Part shown: piece by piece, positions 17,315 to 29,172 of the stretch
Numbering within the stretch: the first letter of the stretch is position 1
Layout: each line of letters starts with the position of its first letter
Translations under genes and position numbers: made by a program
From: Caulobacterales bacterium
GTDB lineage: Bacteria > Pseudomonadota > Alphaproteobacteria > Caulobacterales > Caulobacteraceae
Direction of reading: 5' to 3'
NCBI GenBank assembly: GCA_017302105.1
Contig: JAFLCS010000007.1
Location: forward strand, 1-64,000
Length of the DNA stretch: 64,000 nt
The notes under the pieces: model-generated
The model's database searches: none
What the model saw: the letters and a program-made list of their open reading frames with translations, nothing else
Told to the model about the DNA's origin: nothing

Positions 17315-17749
17315 ATGGCCGCCACTGACACCGTCAAGAAGACCGTCGAACAAGCCACCCAAGCCGGCAACCAAGCCTTCAAGGAAGGCGTCGACAAGTC
17401 GCTGAACGCGCTGACCGAAGCCAACACCCTGGGCAAGAAGAACATCGAAGCCGCCGTCGAGTCGGTCACGGCCGCCACCCGCGGTGCCGAAGCCCTGTCG
17501 GCCCAGGCTCTGGCCTACTCCAAGAAGTCCTGGGAAGACGGCGTGAACGCCGCTCAGGCCCTGGCCTCGGCCAAGTCGGTCCAGGAAGTGATCGAGCTGC
17601 AGACCGCCTACGCCAAGACGGCGATGGAAGCCTATCTGGCTGAAGTCACCAAGGCGACCGACACCCTGTCGGCCTCGGTCAAGGACAGCTTCAAGCCGAT
17701 CAACGAGCGCACCACCGCGATCGTCGAACGCATCCAGTCGGCCCGCTAA
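17315..17749 (+). CDS. Phasin family protein
   Basis: Small helical protein of 144 residues that coats polyhydroxyalkanoate granules. The sequence is almost entirely amphipathic helix rich in Ala, Lys, Glu and Thr with no Cys and no signal peptide; the block VQEVIELQTAYAKTAMEAYLAEVTKATD is typical of the Phasin_2 family. Codon use is strongly biased to a few codons (AAG, ACC, GCC, CTG), as in a highly expressed gene. It is monocistronic, with its own promoter, operator candidate and terminator. phaC and phaR are not in the window. Confidence 0.9.
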   Translation: MAATDTVKKTVEQATQAGNQAFKEGVDKSLNALTEANTLGKKNIEAAVESVTAATRGAEALSAQALAYSKKSWEDGVNAAQALASAKSVQEVIELQTAYAKTAMEAYLAEVTKATDTLSASVKDSFKPINERTTAIVERIQSAR

Positions 17750-17778
17750 CCCTCCTCCCAAGAGCGGTACGACTGAAG

Positions 17779-17810
17779 AAGGCCCGGTGCGGAAACGCGC
17801 CGGGCCTTTT
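17779..17810 (+). terminator. Rho-independent terminator of phasin
   Basis: A long GC stem, AAGGCCCGG...CCGGGCCTT, closes around TGCGGAAACGCG and runs into TTTT, 30 bases after the phasin stop. A textbook intrinsic terminator on the plus strand. Confidence 0.85.
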
Positions 17811-18161
17811 CCTTTGCGCGGCGATCGGGGTAGCCAAACTCACAAGCGAGTCCGCGGATCCAAGCAGGGTCGAAAACGCCCCCCCAACAACGCTATCCAA
17901 AATCCGGATCGAAGGCGTGGCACCCCGATCAGACCAAGAAAAGTCCTTTGACCGAATCTAGTGTTTACAAATCTGCCAACGGCTGCCCGCAGAGGCAGCC
18001 CTCCTCTACACCCTATGAGAGCAGATAGGACTAGAAAGTTTGGGCGCTAAGCGCCGACCTCGTCGGCGCACTCCAACCCAAGCCCGATCCAGAAATTGAC
18101 CAGGAATCGAGTGATCACAACTCGTTGACTTCTATCTGGTGGGCCAACGATCCGGCATAGC
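17811..18161. other. Gene-free, lower-GC intergenic region at the left border of the accessory island
   Basis: About 350 bases without a supportable gene. GC falls noticeably after about 17880. There is a perfect 8-bp stem-loop at 18051-18069 (GCGCCGAC / GTCGGCGC, loop CTC), next to the palindrome GGCGCTAAGCGCC at 18043-18055. No tRNA, integrase fragment or direct repeat matching the right side of the island was found. Confidence 0.5.
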
Positions 18162-18365
18162 TCATAGCGTATCTAGCCACCTATGAACGAGCGGGCGGAC
18201 CACCAGATAACCGACAAACAGTCCCATCGGCACCAATCGCCAAATCCCGATGAGAGACCCGAGGCCAGCACTATGATGCCACCACAAAAAACCTCCTACA
18301 ATGGCAACAAATACCGTCCAATCCGCCGCTACATGTCTTGCATTTCTCGATTTCATGCCATTCAA
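18162..18365 (-). CDS. Possible small membrane protein (67 aa)
   Basis: A minus-strand frame with two hydrophobic segments, about residues 16-30 (WTVFVAIVGGFLWW) and 38-58 (LIGIWRLVPMGLFVGYLVV), separated by a short loop and ending in a basic tail. It lies in low-GC DNA where random open frames are less frequent than in the rest of the window. No Shine-Dalgarno sequence is obvious and the family is unknown. It diverges from the three-gene island operon. Confidence 0.4.
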   Translation of the reverse strand: MNGMKSRNARHVAADWTVFVAIVGGFLWWHHSAGLGSLIGIWRLVPMGLFVGYLVVRPLVHRWLDTL

Positions 18366-18412
18366 ACAGTAAACTTAGAGACCGAGCGGCACTTTGGCAG
18401 CTATCGGCTTGA

Positions 18413-18421
18413 TAAGGGGGG
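18413..18421 (+). promoter_or_regulatory. Strong ribosome-binding site deciding the start of the island operon
   Basis: TAAGGGGGG lies 5-6 bases before ATG 18427 and supports that start over the in-frame ATG at 18394, which lies upstream of it. Confidence 0.6.
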
Positions 18422-18426
18422 CAGTC

Positions 18427-19596
18427 ATGGACTGGCTATTTGAAACTGCTTCGGGACCGGATTTAGCAGACCTACTCACAACTGGGCTAGCACCCTCACG
18501 CGAGGGCCCGGAAGCATCTTTAGACGAAAGAGGAACCACCGCTGACGGAATTGATGATCCACTGGCGAGTTTGGTTCCGCTCGACCCAGAATTCCCCGAA
18601 GGCCCAGACCCAAGGACGAATCCACCACCTGTTGAGCCACCTCCCCCATTTCCTGCCGAGCCTCCCGGCCTTCCATTTGATTATAGCGAAATAGTCGACA
18701 TTGCGGGTCTTATTTCCTGGCTTGAGGACACATTTGGCCCCTCGGCAGATCCGGGCATGGAGAGCTACGACAGTTTGTATGATTATATGGACGGTCGATG
18801 GGTCTTCGATATCGACCCCGAACTGTTTGATGGCGGTGGCTGGTACGGCCCAAACTATCCCGGTGGCTACCTTACCGATGGGCAAAATGGAGTTCGGAGC
18901 CTCGGCTTCACTAGCGCAAGCGGCACGATCGTGCCTATATTTCGCGAATGGAATGAAATAATTGAAAATCCGCCCGGAAATGGCGAGTCCGCATCGGGAT
19001 TCACAGTAATTCATCATACTGAATTCCTTGGATTTCAAAATTCTTGCGCTTATCAGGTAGCTTCGATTGACGGACCGTTTGACTGGTTAGGTCGAATTGA
19101 AGCCGTCATGGGCGCGAGTGACCTCTTGACTGCCTGGAATAGTCTTTTGACAGCTGCGGATCCCCCTGCAAATACAGTCGCTATTTCTGATCCACGCGTC
19201 AGCCCTATGAACGGGCGGTTGACGGCGACGGTAACTTTGGATGGGGAGTTTCTCGGTCATGTTTCGGTTAGTGACACTGGCTATACCTTATATGATCGCA
19301 ATGGCGCGATAGTTAGCTCTGAGTTGCCTTTGCCCCAGAACTGGAACTCCGAACAAGGAGTTGTTTACTGGGAATATCAAGCACACCTAGAACGAACTAT
19401 GGGTGTTCCATTCGCTCAAGGACTCCTCCAGCTAGGATCAGTAGCTACAGGAGGCGCGTTGTCTTTTTTTGCTGGGCTCGGATTTGGATTTGCTTCACAA
19501 TTGATGATAGGCGAATCTGCATCTAACGCCACTGCGTACTCACGTCTGCTAGAAGCGGCATACGAACTCCGCCTTAGAGAGCTAAGATCTCGATGA
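18427..19596 (+). CDS. Unrecognised 389-aa acidic protein with Pro-rich segment and C-terminal hydrophobic segment
   Basis: First gene of a three-gene overlapping operon. No Sec signal is present. Residues 1-55 are acidic, 55-84 are Pro-rich (PPPVEPPPPFPAEPPG), 85-330 look globular and rich in Asp, Trp, Tyr and Gly, and 331-361 form a Gly-rich hydrophobic segment (GLLQLGSVATGGALSFFAGLGFGFAS) that could enter a membrane; a charged helix ends the protein. Only one Cys (207) is present. I do not recognise any family. The architecture could fit an exported effector or toxin-like protein, but that is a guess from context. GC and codon use are well below the neighbours, indicating horizontal acquisition. 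Confidence 0.75.
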   Translation: MDWLFETASGPDLADLLTTGLAPSREGPEASLDERGTTADGIDDPLASLVPLDPEFPEGPDPRTNPPPVEPPPPFPAEPPGLPFDYSEIVDIAGLISWLEDTFGPSADPGMESYDSLYDYMDGRWVFDIDPELFDGGGWYGPNYPGGYLTDGQNGVRSLGFTSASGTIVPIFREWNEIIENPPGNGESASGFTVIHHTEFLGFQNSCAYQVASIDGPFDWLGRIEAVMGASDLLTAWNSLLTAADPPANTVAISDPRVSPMNGRLTATVTLDGEFLGHVSVSDTGYTLYDRNGAIVSSELPLPQNWNSEQGVVYWEYQAHLERTMGVPFAQGLLQLGSVATGGALSFFAGLGFGFASQLMIGESASNATAYSRLLEAAYELRLRELRSR

Positions 19597-20345
19597 TTCC
19601 AGACAGACTTCTCCAAGCATTGTTTGCTATAATGAGCTTTTTGGTATCCTCGGATTGCTTGGCTCAACCCGGATTTCAATACGCCCGAACTGAAAGAGGT
19701 CTCATGTTTGTCGGACCTCTTGATTCGAGCTCGGTGGAGGTGATCCGAACTGAACTTGGAGTCAACGATCAGTTGATTATCAAAAGCTCTGGAGGAGAGA
19801 GATACGCTGCTTCACAACTCGCGAGAGTGCTAGTGGAAAGAAATTCGACCTTGATTATTAACAGTGACTGCTTCTCGGCCTGCGCTCTATACCTCGCGCT
19901 GAGTGCAACACGAACGGAGATTCCGCTGGGAGCGACGCTTTTGTTCCACAATGATACTGCAATGTGGATTGAGGCGTTAGAGCAGCGGCCGGATCTATTC
20001 AGTGACTTCGAGCGGCAAACAATCTTTCAAGCCCATCAAGATTTGGAATCCCTTCTACTAGAGAGAGGAATCAATCCATTGATCCTTTCCTGCATGTCGG
20101 CCGCTATTGATCCACAGTTTGAACTAGCTCGTCGGGCGAGGCCTTGGGAGCGTCAGGCAGGCTCGGATATCGGCGTAATTATCCCAACGACTTTTGACTG
20201 GGTGTGGATGTCTAGAGACGTTCTCGAGCAATTTGGTGCCGTCAACATAGAAATGTCATGGGGTCTCGACAGAAGTGCTCGAGAAACATATTCCGAACTT
20301 CGTGGAATGTCTATCGCCTGGATCGACAGTTTAGCCCAGTGCTGA
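19593..20345 (+). CDS. Secreted ClpP/SppA-like (crotonase-fold) putative serine hydrolase
   Basis: Overlaps the preceding stop by ATGA. Residues 1-25 form a Sec signal ending LAQ. The segment LIIKSSGGERYAASQLARVLVERN (62-85), then NSDCFSACALYLALSATR (90-107), then GATLLFHND (113-121) follows the pattern of periplasmic ClpP-like proteins: a Gly-Gly oxyanion turn, a nucleophile Ser95 flanked by Cys93 and Cys97, and His119. The catalytic acid is not clear, so activity is inferred. It resembles the predicted periplasmic COG3904 group. At 250 residues it is a single domain. Low GC like its neighbours. Confidence 0.75.
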   Translation: MIPDRLLQALFAIMSFLVSSDCLAQPGFQYARTERGLMFVGPLDSSSVEVIRTELGVNDQLIIKSSGGERYAASQLARVLVERNSTLIINSDCFSACALYLALSATRTEIPLGATLLFHNDTAMWIEALEQRPDLFSDFERQTIFQAHQDLESLLLERGINPLILSCMSAAIDPQFELARRARPWERQAGSDIGVIIPTTFDWVWMSRDVLEQFGAVNIEMSWGLDRSARETYSELRGMSIAWIDSLAQC

Positions 20346-21082
20346 TGAAATCTTATACTCGATTGCACTTACCGCCTCTCAGCCAAGTGTCGCAGACAAA
20401 TTCCATACGGAAAATAGAAGACAGAATAGCGCAAATATCACTGAGAAATACAAGTTTCTTTTCAACATTTGGATTAGAGCTAAAAGCATCGCATCTAGTT
20501 GCAATTGATGGACAGGAGGGGCGAAGGCAGATATTAAATCGACATATTTCTCGACCTGCATTCGAGCCAATACTTTTTCATTTCTGCGATAAATTATGCG
20601 CGCATGAAATCGATATTGCCACCATGGAAGGGGTGGCTTCCGGCGCGGCAGCTAGACCCATCGTCAGGGCAGTTGGAGAAATGAGGACTTCTTCTTCAGC
20701 AGATGGGCATTACACATTGTACGCGCCGCTGAAGGAACGGCTCAGGCTGACGGATTGTCTTAATCAGCTAGCGTCCGAGACATGCTATTCCCCGCTAACT
20801 GCTGCCTTGATTTGTTATTCGATGACGATAATCGCGCACCCCTTGGTGGATGGCAACGGACGCTTGGCTCGTGCTTTGCTTTTCGGCACCCTCCGAAGAG
20901 CTCGACTGATAGATGCGCCTATTGTCCCGCTAGGACCGGCTTTTTATCTTCATGCTGGGGCAGTTGGCCCGACAATGGCTACGCTCTCGCAGAGCGGTAA
21001 CTGGCAGGTTGCGGTGGAGGGTTTGGCTTCGGTAATTTCAACCGCTTGCGATTTGGCCGATGCGGTAGATCGCCTTATTTGA
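20345..21082 (+). CDS. Fic/DOC-family protein (putative AMP-transferase)
   Basis: Starts at ATG 20345, sharing a base with the previous stop (TGATG); a longer frame from 20258 lies inside the previous gene. The Fic core motif is HPLVDGNGRLAR at residues 165-176, with catalytic His165, Asp169, Asn171 and Arg173; the usual third-position Phe is Leu. An upstream block (GEMRTSSSADGHYTLYAPLKERLRL, 111-135) matches the beta-hairpin flap that positions the target. DIATMEG at 90-96 sits where class II Fic proteins carry their inhibitory helix; Glu95 is kept but the Ser/Thr four residues before it is not. 245 residues, no signal peptide. Fic enzymes transfer AMP or other phosphate-containing groups onto proteins. 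Confidence 0.85.
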   Translation: MKSYTRLHLPPLSQVSQTNSIRKIEDRIAQISLRNTSFFSTFGLELKASHLVAIDGQEGRRQILNRHISRPAFEPILFHFCDKLCAHEIDIATMEGVASGAAARPIVRAVGEMRTSSSADGHYTLYAPLKERLRLTDCLNQLASETCYSPLTAALICYSMTIIAHPLVDGNGRLARALLFGTLRRARLIDAPIVPLGPAFYLHAGAVGPTMATLSQSGNWQVAVEGLASVISTACDLADAVDRLI

Positions 21083-21226
21083 CCCCTTGAAGGCGAGGCG
21101 AGTGGAAAGCGGCGTACGTGATGAGATGGTGGCTTACTGTCCGCCTCTTCCCAAGCGGTGTTTTCGGCTTATCTATCTGCAACGGCTTTGAACGTTCGCG
21201 ATTTCGATTTGAGAGCAGGCCTTCGC
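21083..21226 (+). other. Right border of the island and clpS leader
   Basis: About 145 bases between the Fic gene and clpS. GC recovers after about 21200. A clpS promoter is expected here, but no strong -35/-10 pair stands out. Confidence 0.35.
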
Positions 21227-21556
21227 ATGGGAGATCCGCACAGCATAGAGCCCGGAGGCGGCCTCGGCGCCGCCACCGTCACCGAGACGAAACCGAAGCT
21301 CCAGAAGCCCTCGTTGTACCGGGTGTTGATCCTGAACGACGACTACACCCCAATGGAATTCGTGGTTTACGTTCTTGAGCGTTTCTTTGCCAAATCGCGC
21401 GAAGATGCGACTCGGATCATGTTGCACGTTCATCAACACGGCGTCGGGGTTTGTGGCGTCTTCACCTACGAGGTCGCCGAAACAAAGGTGGCGCAGGTTC
21501 TGGAAACGGCCCGGCACCACCAACATCCGCTGCAATGCACTATGGAGAAGGACTAA
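21227..21556 (+). CDS. clpS: ClpS, N-end rule adaptor for ClpAP
   Basis: Adaptor that delivers substrates with bulky hydrophobic N-termini to ClpA. After a short variable N-terminus the conserved ClpS fold begins [25 protein letters not shown], where NDDYTPM lines the N-degron pocket, and continues [28 protein letters not shown] 21227 gives 109 residues, a normal length; an in-frame ATG at 21158 would add 23 atypical residues. clpA follows four bases after the stop. Confidence 0.93.
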
Positions 21557-28278: not shown

Positions 28279-29172
28279 ATGAGCGCGATCCTCACCACAT
28301 CGAGTCTAACCAAGACCTACGGTCCGGTCAGGGCCCTGGACGGCCTGACGCTGGAGGTGCCCAAAGGCGGCGTCTATGGCGTGCTCGGCCCCAATGGGGC
28401 CGGCAAGTCCACCCTGTTTCGGATCTGGCTGGGCCTAATCCAGCCCACTTCCGGCGATGCGAGCGTGCTGGGCGGCGCACCCGGGACTCCACGCCGGATC
28501 GGGTCCATGATCGAGACGCCACGCTTTCCGCCCTTCCTGACGGCTCGCGGCGTGCTGGAATGGCTGAGCCTGGCATCAGGCCTGAAAGGCGAGGCCACCG
28601 AAATAGACGCCCTGCTCGAGCGAGTCGGACTGACCGAAGCGGCCGGACGCAAGGTGCGAGGGTTCTCGGTCGGTATGCACCAGCGCCTCGGTGTCGCCGC
28701 TGCCCTGCTCGGAAACCCCTCGATGGTCATTCTGGATGAGCCGACCTCGGGCATGGACCCGAACGGCATCAACGAGATGCGAGCCCTGATCCGGTCCCTG
28801 GCTGATCGGGATGGGGTCAGCGTCGTCCTGGCCAGCCACCAGTTGGCCGAGGTTCAGAAGATCTGCGACCGCGTGGCCATCCTCAATCGGGGTGCCCTGG
28901 CAGCCGAAGGCAGCGTCACGGATCTGATCGGCGGGGCCGGCGGCGAGCGCCTGAGGCTACAGGTCGCGGAGCCGGCGCGCGTCGCCACACTGATCGGCAC
29001 CGGGGCCGAGGCCCAGGCCGATGCCGTTCTGGTCAACCTGCCCCGCGCCGACGCGCCTGCCCTCATCCGTCGTCTCGCGATCGAGGGCACCGAGATTTTC
29101 GAAGCACGCTGGGTCGGCGCCGACCTGGAAGCCGTATTCATGCAGGAAACCGGAGGTCAGGATGCTCGCTGA
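28279..29172 (+). CDS. ABC transporter ATP-binding protein
   Basis: 297-residue ATPase of the DrrA/CcmA-like exporter class. Walker A is GPNGAGKST (about 37-45), the signature is degenerate (VRGFSVGMHQRL), Walker B is MVILDEPTSGMDPNG and the H-loop is VVLASHQLAEVQ. The C-terminal extension after about 220 is typical of these exporters. ATG 28279 is used; the open frame from 27697 is antisense to the phosphodiesterase gene. It overlaps the permease start by 11 bases. Confidence 0.93.
   Translation: MSAILTTSSLTKTYGPVRALDGLTLEVPKGGVYGVLGPNGAGKSTLFRIWLGLIQPTSGDASVLGGAPGTPRRIGSMIETPRFPPFLTARGVLEWLSLASGLKGEATEIDALLERVGLTEAAGRKVRGFSVGMHQRLGVAAALLGNPSMVILDEPTSGMDPNGINEMRALIRSLADRDGVSVVLASHQLAEVQKICDRVAILNRGALAAEGSVTDLIGGAGGERLRLQVAEPARVATLIGTGAEAQADAVLVNLPRADAPALIRRLAIEGTEIFEARWVGADLEAVFMQETGGQDAR

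Follow-up and report, generated by a model that had tools for sequence, protein, structure and literature searches.

What might link three overlapping genes of a Caulobacterales bacterium that encode an acidic protein without an assigned family (P1), a secreted ClpP-like protein (P2) and a Fic protein (P3)? They lie on the forward strand of a 64,000-nucleotide stretch (NCBI GenBank assembly GCA_017302105.1, contig JAFLCS010000007.1, positions 1 to 64,000), hereafter the window, as open reading frames (ORFs) of 389 residues (18427-19596), 250 residues (19593-20345) and 245 residues (20345-21082), respectively. An earlier note on this DNA, made from the sequence alone, had described them as an island of low guanine-plus-cytosine (GC) content in which the 389-residue protein could be an effector or substrate controlled by the other two. 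By sequence comparison, we find that the trio is a conserved unit, and we propose, with about an even chance of being right, that it came in by horizontal transfer as an effector cassette akin to the export operons of bacteriocins, in which P1 would be the cargo, P2 a periplasmic hydrolase and P3 a cytosolic Fic enzyme.

Conservation and origin of the three genes

A search with P3 through 131 genomes of the genus returned matches in 17, the window's own included, and only the match in genome G637 was near full-length (46% identity). It adjoins a P1 homologue (46%) and a P2 homologue (43%), arranged as in the window and with the P1 and P2 genes overlapping by 4 bases; the contig also encodes a tyrosine integrase and a TraG/VirD4-like protein (names given by eye, as are those of the HlyD-type and phasin genes below). 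When a P1 profile was run against 390 genomes of the family, the genomes that proved to have P1-type genes were those of the window, G637 and G671 alone; one further match, in G142 (E 8e-4, 62 positions), was taken as chance. G671, a one-contig genome from the genus of Caulobacter radicis, encodes on one strand and consecutively a Fic protein, a P1-like cargo, a ClpP-like lipoprotein, an HlyD-type protein and a C39 ATP-binding cassette (ABC) exporter. Its first three products resemble those of the window (29% identity over 166 residues for P1, 1.7e-9; 29% for P2, 7e-18; 25% for P3, 7e-10), and its cargo starts with MFRELTLREANLIAGG, a classic-type double-glycine leader. All three P1-type genes accompany a ClpP-like gene and a Fic gene, so these homologues do not always occur singly, the outcome that the earlier note had named as counterevidence. 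The co-occurrence in unrelated genomes that it had asked for is borne out only weakly, as two of the three loci share a genus and the other is no more distant than the family.

The trio is flanked on the left by a phasin gene (17315-17749, forward strand) and on the right by clpS (21230-21556, forward strand; 85-96% identical to the clpS of relatives). We sought clpS in 30 other genomes of the genus and obtained the locus in 28. The phasin gene adjoins clpS in 27 of these 28, at a distance of 178-803 bp, compared with ~3.5 kb in the window. DNA similarity to these relatives ends at ~17749-17819, past the phasin gene, and returns at ~21247-21270, at clpS. The wide gap together with the break in similarity indicates that the trio is an insertion, contained in a low-GC segment of approximately 17820-21225 (no strand assigned) that is delimited by the similarity break and a dip in GC.

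Base composition points the same way. The GC content of P1, P2 and P3 is 0.517, 0.491 and 0.495, and their GC at third codon positions (GC3) is 0.446, 0.490 and 0.451, against a mean of 0.759 (standard deviation 0.077, minimum 0.609) for 40 further ORFs in the window, each 200 residues or longer. Codon-usage distances of 0.185-0.196 in the trio exceed the maximum of 0.126 in this reference set, in which none of the 40 ORFs is as deviant as any trio gene. The lower GC and A/T-rich codons noticed earlier are thereby borne out, and the normal codon usage that had been set down as grounds for rejection was not what we found; the overlaps ATGA (P1/P2) and TGATG (P2/P3) were also verified. The description of the trio as lying between a terminated phasin gene and clpSA holds for the flanks, whereas the phasin terminator (~17781-17815) was recognized by eye only and is absent from the list of a terminator scan. 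ARAGORN detected no tRNA between 15000 and 25000, and the inserted segment is not flanked by a pair of repeats. Judged by these comparisons, the three genes are a foreign insertion in a Brevundimonas-type chromosome.

The Fic clade and its export loci

Fic enzymes transfer AMP or similar groups to protein hydroxyls. P3 scores 23.9 bits against PF02661 (E 7.8e-5), just under the curated cut-off of 24 bits, which is passed by all five relatives scanned among the 12 in the clade described below. Its active-site motif HPLVDGNGRLAR (20837-20872, forward strand) keeps H...DGNGR..R intact, as do the Fics of all 13 clade loci. With an E limit of 0.01, a profile of the clade matched 31 sequences in the PDB, comprising 30 Fic/Fido proteins (best 5.6e-15) and one designed protein, and the earlier identification of a Fic protein stands. 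The inhibitory Fic helix has the motif (S/T)xxxE(G/N); Glu45 of P3 is invariant in seven of seven aligned rows, and the flanking positions of this motif are not kept. PADLOC matched P3 to SoFic (4e-11, confined to positions 135-250 of the 361 in the profile) and to the candidate PDC-S24 (2e-7). A plasmid search with P3 gave 10 Fic records at 25-32% identity and a phage search gave no match; scans of viral contigs yielded no relative of P1, P3 or the queries A1, A2 and A3, and two weak Fic matches to the query A6.

Profile searches placed P3 in a clade of 13 Fic loci: the window, G637, G640, G614, G142 (C. radicis), G126 (C. vibrioides OR37), G671, G176, G099, G154, G056, G146 and L084. G640 and G614 are of the same genus; G671, G176, G099, G154, G056 and G146 are of the same family; and L084, from a separate search, is a Sphingomonadales metagenome-assembled genome. 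The 13 Fics are monophyletic with respect to 40 other Fics (support 100/97), and a second tree, with 25 control Fics, separates them from the five placeable lower-scoring matches (99/98), although long branches leave the order inside the clade unsure. Twelve of 18 matched genomes were used as clade members. Of the six unused (G582, G029, G158, G713, G743 and G764), five fall outside the clade and G158 could not be placed. G176, which G713 outscored, was added for its neighbours; it lies inside the clade in both trees and, being without an exporter, adds nothing to the C39 count.

C39 exporters cleave double-glycine leaders and export the cargo. Such an exporter lies within 6 kb of 6/13 clade Fics (in G671, G154, G099, G056, L084 and C. 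radicis) and of none of 76 control Fic loci (Fisher 3e-6), and the same counts hold for HlyD-type genes (6/13 versus 0/76, Fisher 3e-6). A strict double-glycine leader, by a pattern devised after the clade loci were seen, occurs within 6 kb at five of the 13 loci and at none of the 76 (3e-5); G056 has an additional leader-bearing cargo just past the 6-kb range. The control set (74 of 80 loci from a profile search, plus L176 and L178) spans many phyla, is unmatched in taxonomy and often has cut flanks (mean length 9.9 kb, against 11.3 kb for the clade). The Q.E..ECG and HFVV signatures are kept in all seven C39 exporters inspected. C39 is present somewhere in nine of the 13 clade genomes, that of G637 being on another contig than the trio.

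The cargos at these loci are diverse. P1-type cargo with a ClpP-like partner occurs in the window, G637 and G671, and G176 pairs a leader-like cargo with a ClpP-like lipoprotein. JAB-like cargos, recognized by eye from an HNHP motif, follow a double-glycine leader in G154 and G056 and a DWxFE start in G614; their JAB-like parts are mutually similar (E 1e-5 to 4e-3), and the cargos of G154 and G614 gave no Pfam match. G640 encodes a DUF4329-like protein (E 1.4e-3, under the cut-off) and, after the Fic gene, a DUF922 gene (1.8e-29); DUF4329 is Tox-JAB-2 in the excerpted parts of a polymorphic-toxin survey (PMC3482391). The OR37 cargo has a Pro-rich linker and a Lipase_3 domain (4.7e-9), beside a 158-residue membrane-type protein (by eye). 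In L084, a leader, a Gly/Pro linker and a domain without assignment make up the cargo, and a secreted SNase-like protein (4e-6) follows. The cargos of G099 and G146 are small leader peptides, accompanied in G099 by a secreted aspartyl-protease-like protein (7.5e-12).

At the C. radicis locus, an 80-residue peptide with a double-glycine site and a Tyr/Asp-rich tail lies by a XyeB/FxsB-like radical S-adenosylmethionine (SAM) enzyme (L076 3550-5122; 5e-62, 209.8 bits, cut-off 450). The pair is likely a cyclophane cluster of the ribosomally synthesized and post-translationally modified peptide type, with a Fic. The exporter is on the opposite strand, and a secreted protein at this locus has no Pfam family; a TraB/Tiki-like label given to it by eye was set aside, as Pfam shows nothing.

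Predicted roles and rival explanations

P1 is strongly acidic (isoelectric point 4.05; 55 Asp and Glu against 16 Lys and Arg). It begins with the leader-like motif MDWLFETASG (18427-18456, forward strand), comparable to MDWSFEVGSG in G637 and MQDWMFETG in G614, so that these three share a start of the form M(x)DWxFE(T/V) instead of a double-glycine leader. This start precedes P1-type ends in P1 and G637 and the JAB-like end in G614, which amounts to three examples and one exchange for a short motif. An acidic Pro-rich linker follows (18595-18672, forward strand; from sequence), with P57, P60, P67, P71, P72 and P74 invariant in three of three rows, and a hydrophobic Gly-rich stretch lies towards the C-terminus (19423-19512, forward strand; hydropathy peak, residues 333-362), whose GLGFG is kept in G637 and not in G671. 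NCBIfam, PADLOC and PHROGs gave no family for P1, and a single sub-threshold Pfam match (E 0.1) was disregarded. A single-sequence search of 385 genomes of the class returned four weak pieces (E 0.004-0.007), judged chance; a scan of genome contigs showed no relatives of P1, and a plasmid search matched neither P1 nor the G671 cargo. Matches of the P1 profile in the PDB to virus fibre proteins (E 0.005-0.017, profile positions 251-317) and one mitochondrial subunit (0.14) also look like chance. Separately, a Tyr-Asp motif shared past the cargo linkers, a possible Fic target, was noted and is not claimed here.

P2 has an N-terminal hydrophobic signal. In a hand-chosen alignment of 16 P2-like rows, from which the P2-like places L008, L014 and L017 were left out, Ser95 (19875-19877), His119 (19947-19949) and an SxGG loop are invariant, as are two cysteines flanking the serine; no invariant Asp was seen. 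Ser95 and His119 align with the catalytic Ser and His of ClpP, and ClpP-type Ser-His sites cleave peptides. With an E limit of 0.1, the 16-row profile retrieved 14 sequences from the PDB, every one a ClpP (best 1.1e-4), and a two-row profile gave no PDB match. Pfam CLP_protease does not match P2 as a single sequence and matches three of the 16 aligned relatives (best 4e-6), which is why we term P2 ClpP-like and not a ClpP. The earlier description of a secreted ClpP-like protein is thus upheld, by the signal and by a likeness clear from the 16-row profile and not from single-sequence Pfam. ClpP forms rings in the cytosol that act together with a Clp ATPase; a partnership of P2 with the neighbouring clpSA is unlikely because P2 has a secretion signal.

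In the arrangement that we favour, P1 would be a cargo made up of a short N-terminal export or recognition motif, the acidic Pro-rich linker and a C-terminal effector domain. P2 would be a secreted serine hydrolase of the periplasm that most likely protects the producer by destroying or capturing returning cargo, trimming being less likely. P3 would most likely AMPylate the cargo, or a factor that handles it, in the cytosol ahead of export. These roles are assigned from gene position and signals. The clade Fics stay constant while the cargos vary, which suggests that the Fic acts on a common element: the N-terminal part, the linker or the export step. HlyC, acting in the cytosol, acylates type I cargos prior to their export, and P3 may play a parallel role to such acyltransferases. 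In G104 (L179 4007-8002), HlyC (PF02794, 1.1e-17) occurs with a double-glycine peptide and a C39 exporter, between which a ClpP-like lipoprotein is encoded; no Fic was seen on this 9.1-kb contig. Other modifying enzymes at the clade loci are the XyeB-like radical SAM enzyme and a 2-oxoglutarate (2OG) oxygenase, and their presence with HlyC at the same kind of loci favours cargo modification. Toxicity of the cargo, the protective role of P2 and the substrate of P3 we infer; the sequences themselves show that the trio is conserved as a unit, is of foreign origin, keeps its catalytic motifs and has relatives in double-glycine/C39 operons. The earlier conjecture about the 389-residue protein gains on the side of an effector, from relatives with double-glycine leaders by C39 exporters; its control by the Fic or ClpP-like protein stays hypothetical.

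Several results weigh against this arrangement. Within 6 kb of seven of the 13 clade Fics there is no exporter; searches of the G614 (listed as 82% complete), OR37 and G176 genomes gave no C39; and a ClpP-like partner occurs at only four clade loci (window, G637, G671 and G176). P1 has no canonical double-glycine leader, the strict pattern matches nothing around the window trio, and the family libraries revealed no known toxin domain in P1. An exporter stands beside a P2-like gene at one of 16 other places (G104). The window genome gave no Peptidase_C39 match (search controls positive in 8/14) and no match to the HlyD-type protein of G671 in a search without a positive control. The analogy with HlyC comes from one locus (G104), the immunity role of P2 would be read from position alone, and the Fic substrate is conjectural. 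We conclude that the DWxFE cargos (P1, G637 and G614) either use another exporter or, in the window genome, belong to an orphaned cassette.

Orphaning, in which the exporter was lost, export of P1 ended and the cassette either persists solely as a means of protection or is in decay, is one of the two strongest competitors, to which we give perhaps half the credence of an exported effector. It would account for a genome listed as 100% complete with neither C39 nor a G671-type HlyD protein, and for a P1 without a double-glycine leader. However, each of the three genes is intact and overlaps tightly with the next, the DWxFE start common to G637, G614 and P1 suggests kept function and not decay, and the HlyD search had no positive control. 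Apart from this, the window contains an ABC-transporter ATPase-like stretch (28336-28899) with 28% identity, by tblastn, to the ATPase region of the exporter in G671.

No less plausible than orphaning, and still a minority view, is that P2 has no immunity role and is a maturation protease, by which P1 is trimmed in the periplasm as it is exported or afterwards. The secretion signal and the ClpP Ser and His would suit such a protease, and cargo loci without a C39 peptidase would require some other processing enzyme. Yet the ClpP-like gene is also present where a C39 exporter exists (G671 and G104), and the other clade neighbours (membrane-type by eye, SNase-like and small secreted proteins) look more like swapped immunity genes than like a single protease.

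Considerably less probable is an intracellular toxin-antitoxin or phage-defence unit, with the Fic as its toxin or defence enzyme under the control of P1 or P2. Fic proteins act in this way elsewhere, and the PADLOC matches to SoFic and PDC-S24 agree with such a part, as does the Doc/Fic toxin domain listed in the excerpted survey (PMC3482391). Control of a cytosolic Fic is unlikely for a protein with the secretion signal of P2, and the clade Fics accompany several unrelated cargos, with an exporter at six of 13 loci. Of the defence, toxin or signalling unit suggested earlier, the phage-defence option finds nothing in the gene neighbourhoods, these PADLOC matches notwithstanding. That the trio is a chance meeting of unrelated imports is very improbable: low-GC islands do gather unrelated genes, and P2-like genes are often solitary (a cargo-like neighbour by eye at four of 16 other places and none seen at 12), but the full trio at G637 and G671 contradicts it.

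Relation to known systems and further loci

The exported effector cassette that we favour has partial counterparts. Double-glycine bacteriocin and microcin loci with C39 peptidase-containing ABC exporters (PCAT) resemble the clade relatives that carry an exporter, whose leaders (for example, MRELTLAEFDLIAGG) are classic-looking. They differ from the window, where P1 has no such leader and no exporter was found in the genome, and from the clade at large, in which the Fic is constant and several cargos are large proteins that contain linkers and resemble enzymes in their C-terminal parts. The combination of an N-terminal part with exchangeable C-terminal parts, one of them DUF4329-like, and with partner genes adjoining the cargo recalls polymorphic toxin systems (PMC3482391, excerpts); the N-terminal part and the export route are different, and the P1 domain matches nothing. 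Fic itself appears in those excerpts as a toxin domain, whereas at the clade loci it is an accessory enzyme. The Cdz contact-dependent bacteriocin (PMC5380434) also comes from Caulobacter and has type I export, glycine-zipper secreted proteins and one immunity gene, but it is a small two-protein bacteriocin with a three-transmembrane immunity protein, and the text on it has neither the word Fic nor double-glycine.

Two enzyme systems are also comparable. HlyC-HlyA activation likewise has a cytosolic enzyme gene by a type I cargo, and HlyC itself occurs at the Fic-less G104 locus; the difference is that HlyC moves a fatty acyl group and the Fic would move a nucleotide. With SoFic and other class II Fic AMP transferases, P3 has the catalytic core and motif in common, but its clade stands apart from the control Fics, and the match to SoFic structures starts only at profile position 85 or later.

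In searches of open-licence papers, the titles and abstract openings listed showed no link of Fic to such export loci or of ClpP-like proteins to bacteriocin immunity. The Fic and ClpP-like accessories would be what is new here; exported effectors of bacteriocin or polymorphic type are known already. If the proposal is true, Fic would be a maturation enzyme for exported antibacterial proteins and a secreted ClpP-like protease an immunity factor, and the pairing of cargo and Fic would supply a predicted substrate encoded next to these bacterial Fics, making the modification target directly testable. More speculatively, and with rather less confidence than we place in the cassette itself, the loci could represent an undescribed class of exported weapon in Caulobacterales and Sphingomonadales, with leader-linker-toxin cargos, nucleotide tagging of the cargo in the cytosol by a dedicated Fic as constant partner, possible self-protection by secreted ClpP-like proteases and, in the window type, a DWxFE start that replaces the double-glycine leader and feeds a different exporter.

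Several smaller observations concern related loci. G104 places a toxin-activating acyltransferase gene in a microcin-like locus. ClpP-like genes also stand beside a cargo-like gene in G167 (L180 214-1657) and beside a glycine-zipper-like peptide in G062 (L181 8054-9214), and the ORF lists of these two stretches showed no Fic. The oxygenase of the 2OG-Fe(II) type belongs to the G154 locus, and a gene of similar appearance (by eye) is present in G056. The Fic gene of G614 (L072 2079-2828) is truncated by an in-frame TAG past the active-site motif, and the reading frames of the cargo and small secreted neighbours at this locus are open. The Fic genes of G640 (L071 1-2069) and G146 (L171 5084-7726) adjoin phage head-type genes, portal-like in both (by eye), in clusters that resemble a gene-transfer agent or prophage. 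A DUF6932 gene lies directly 3' of the Fic gene in three clade loci (L173 7519-8145, L174 7083-8248 and L177 8606-9283).

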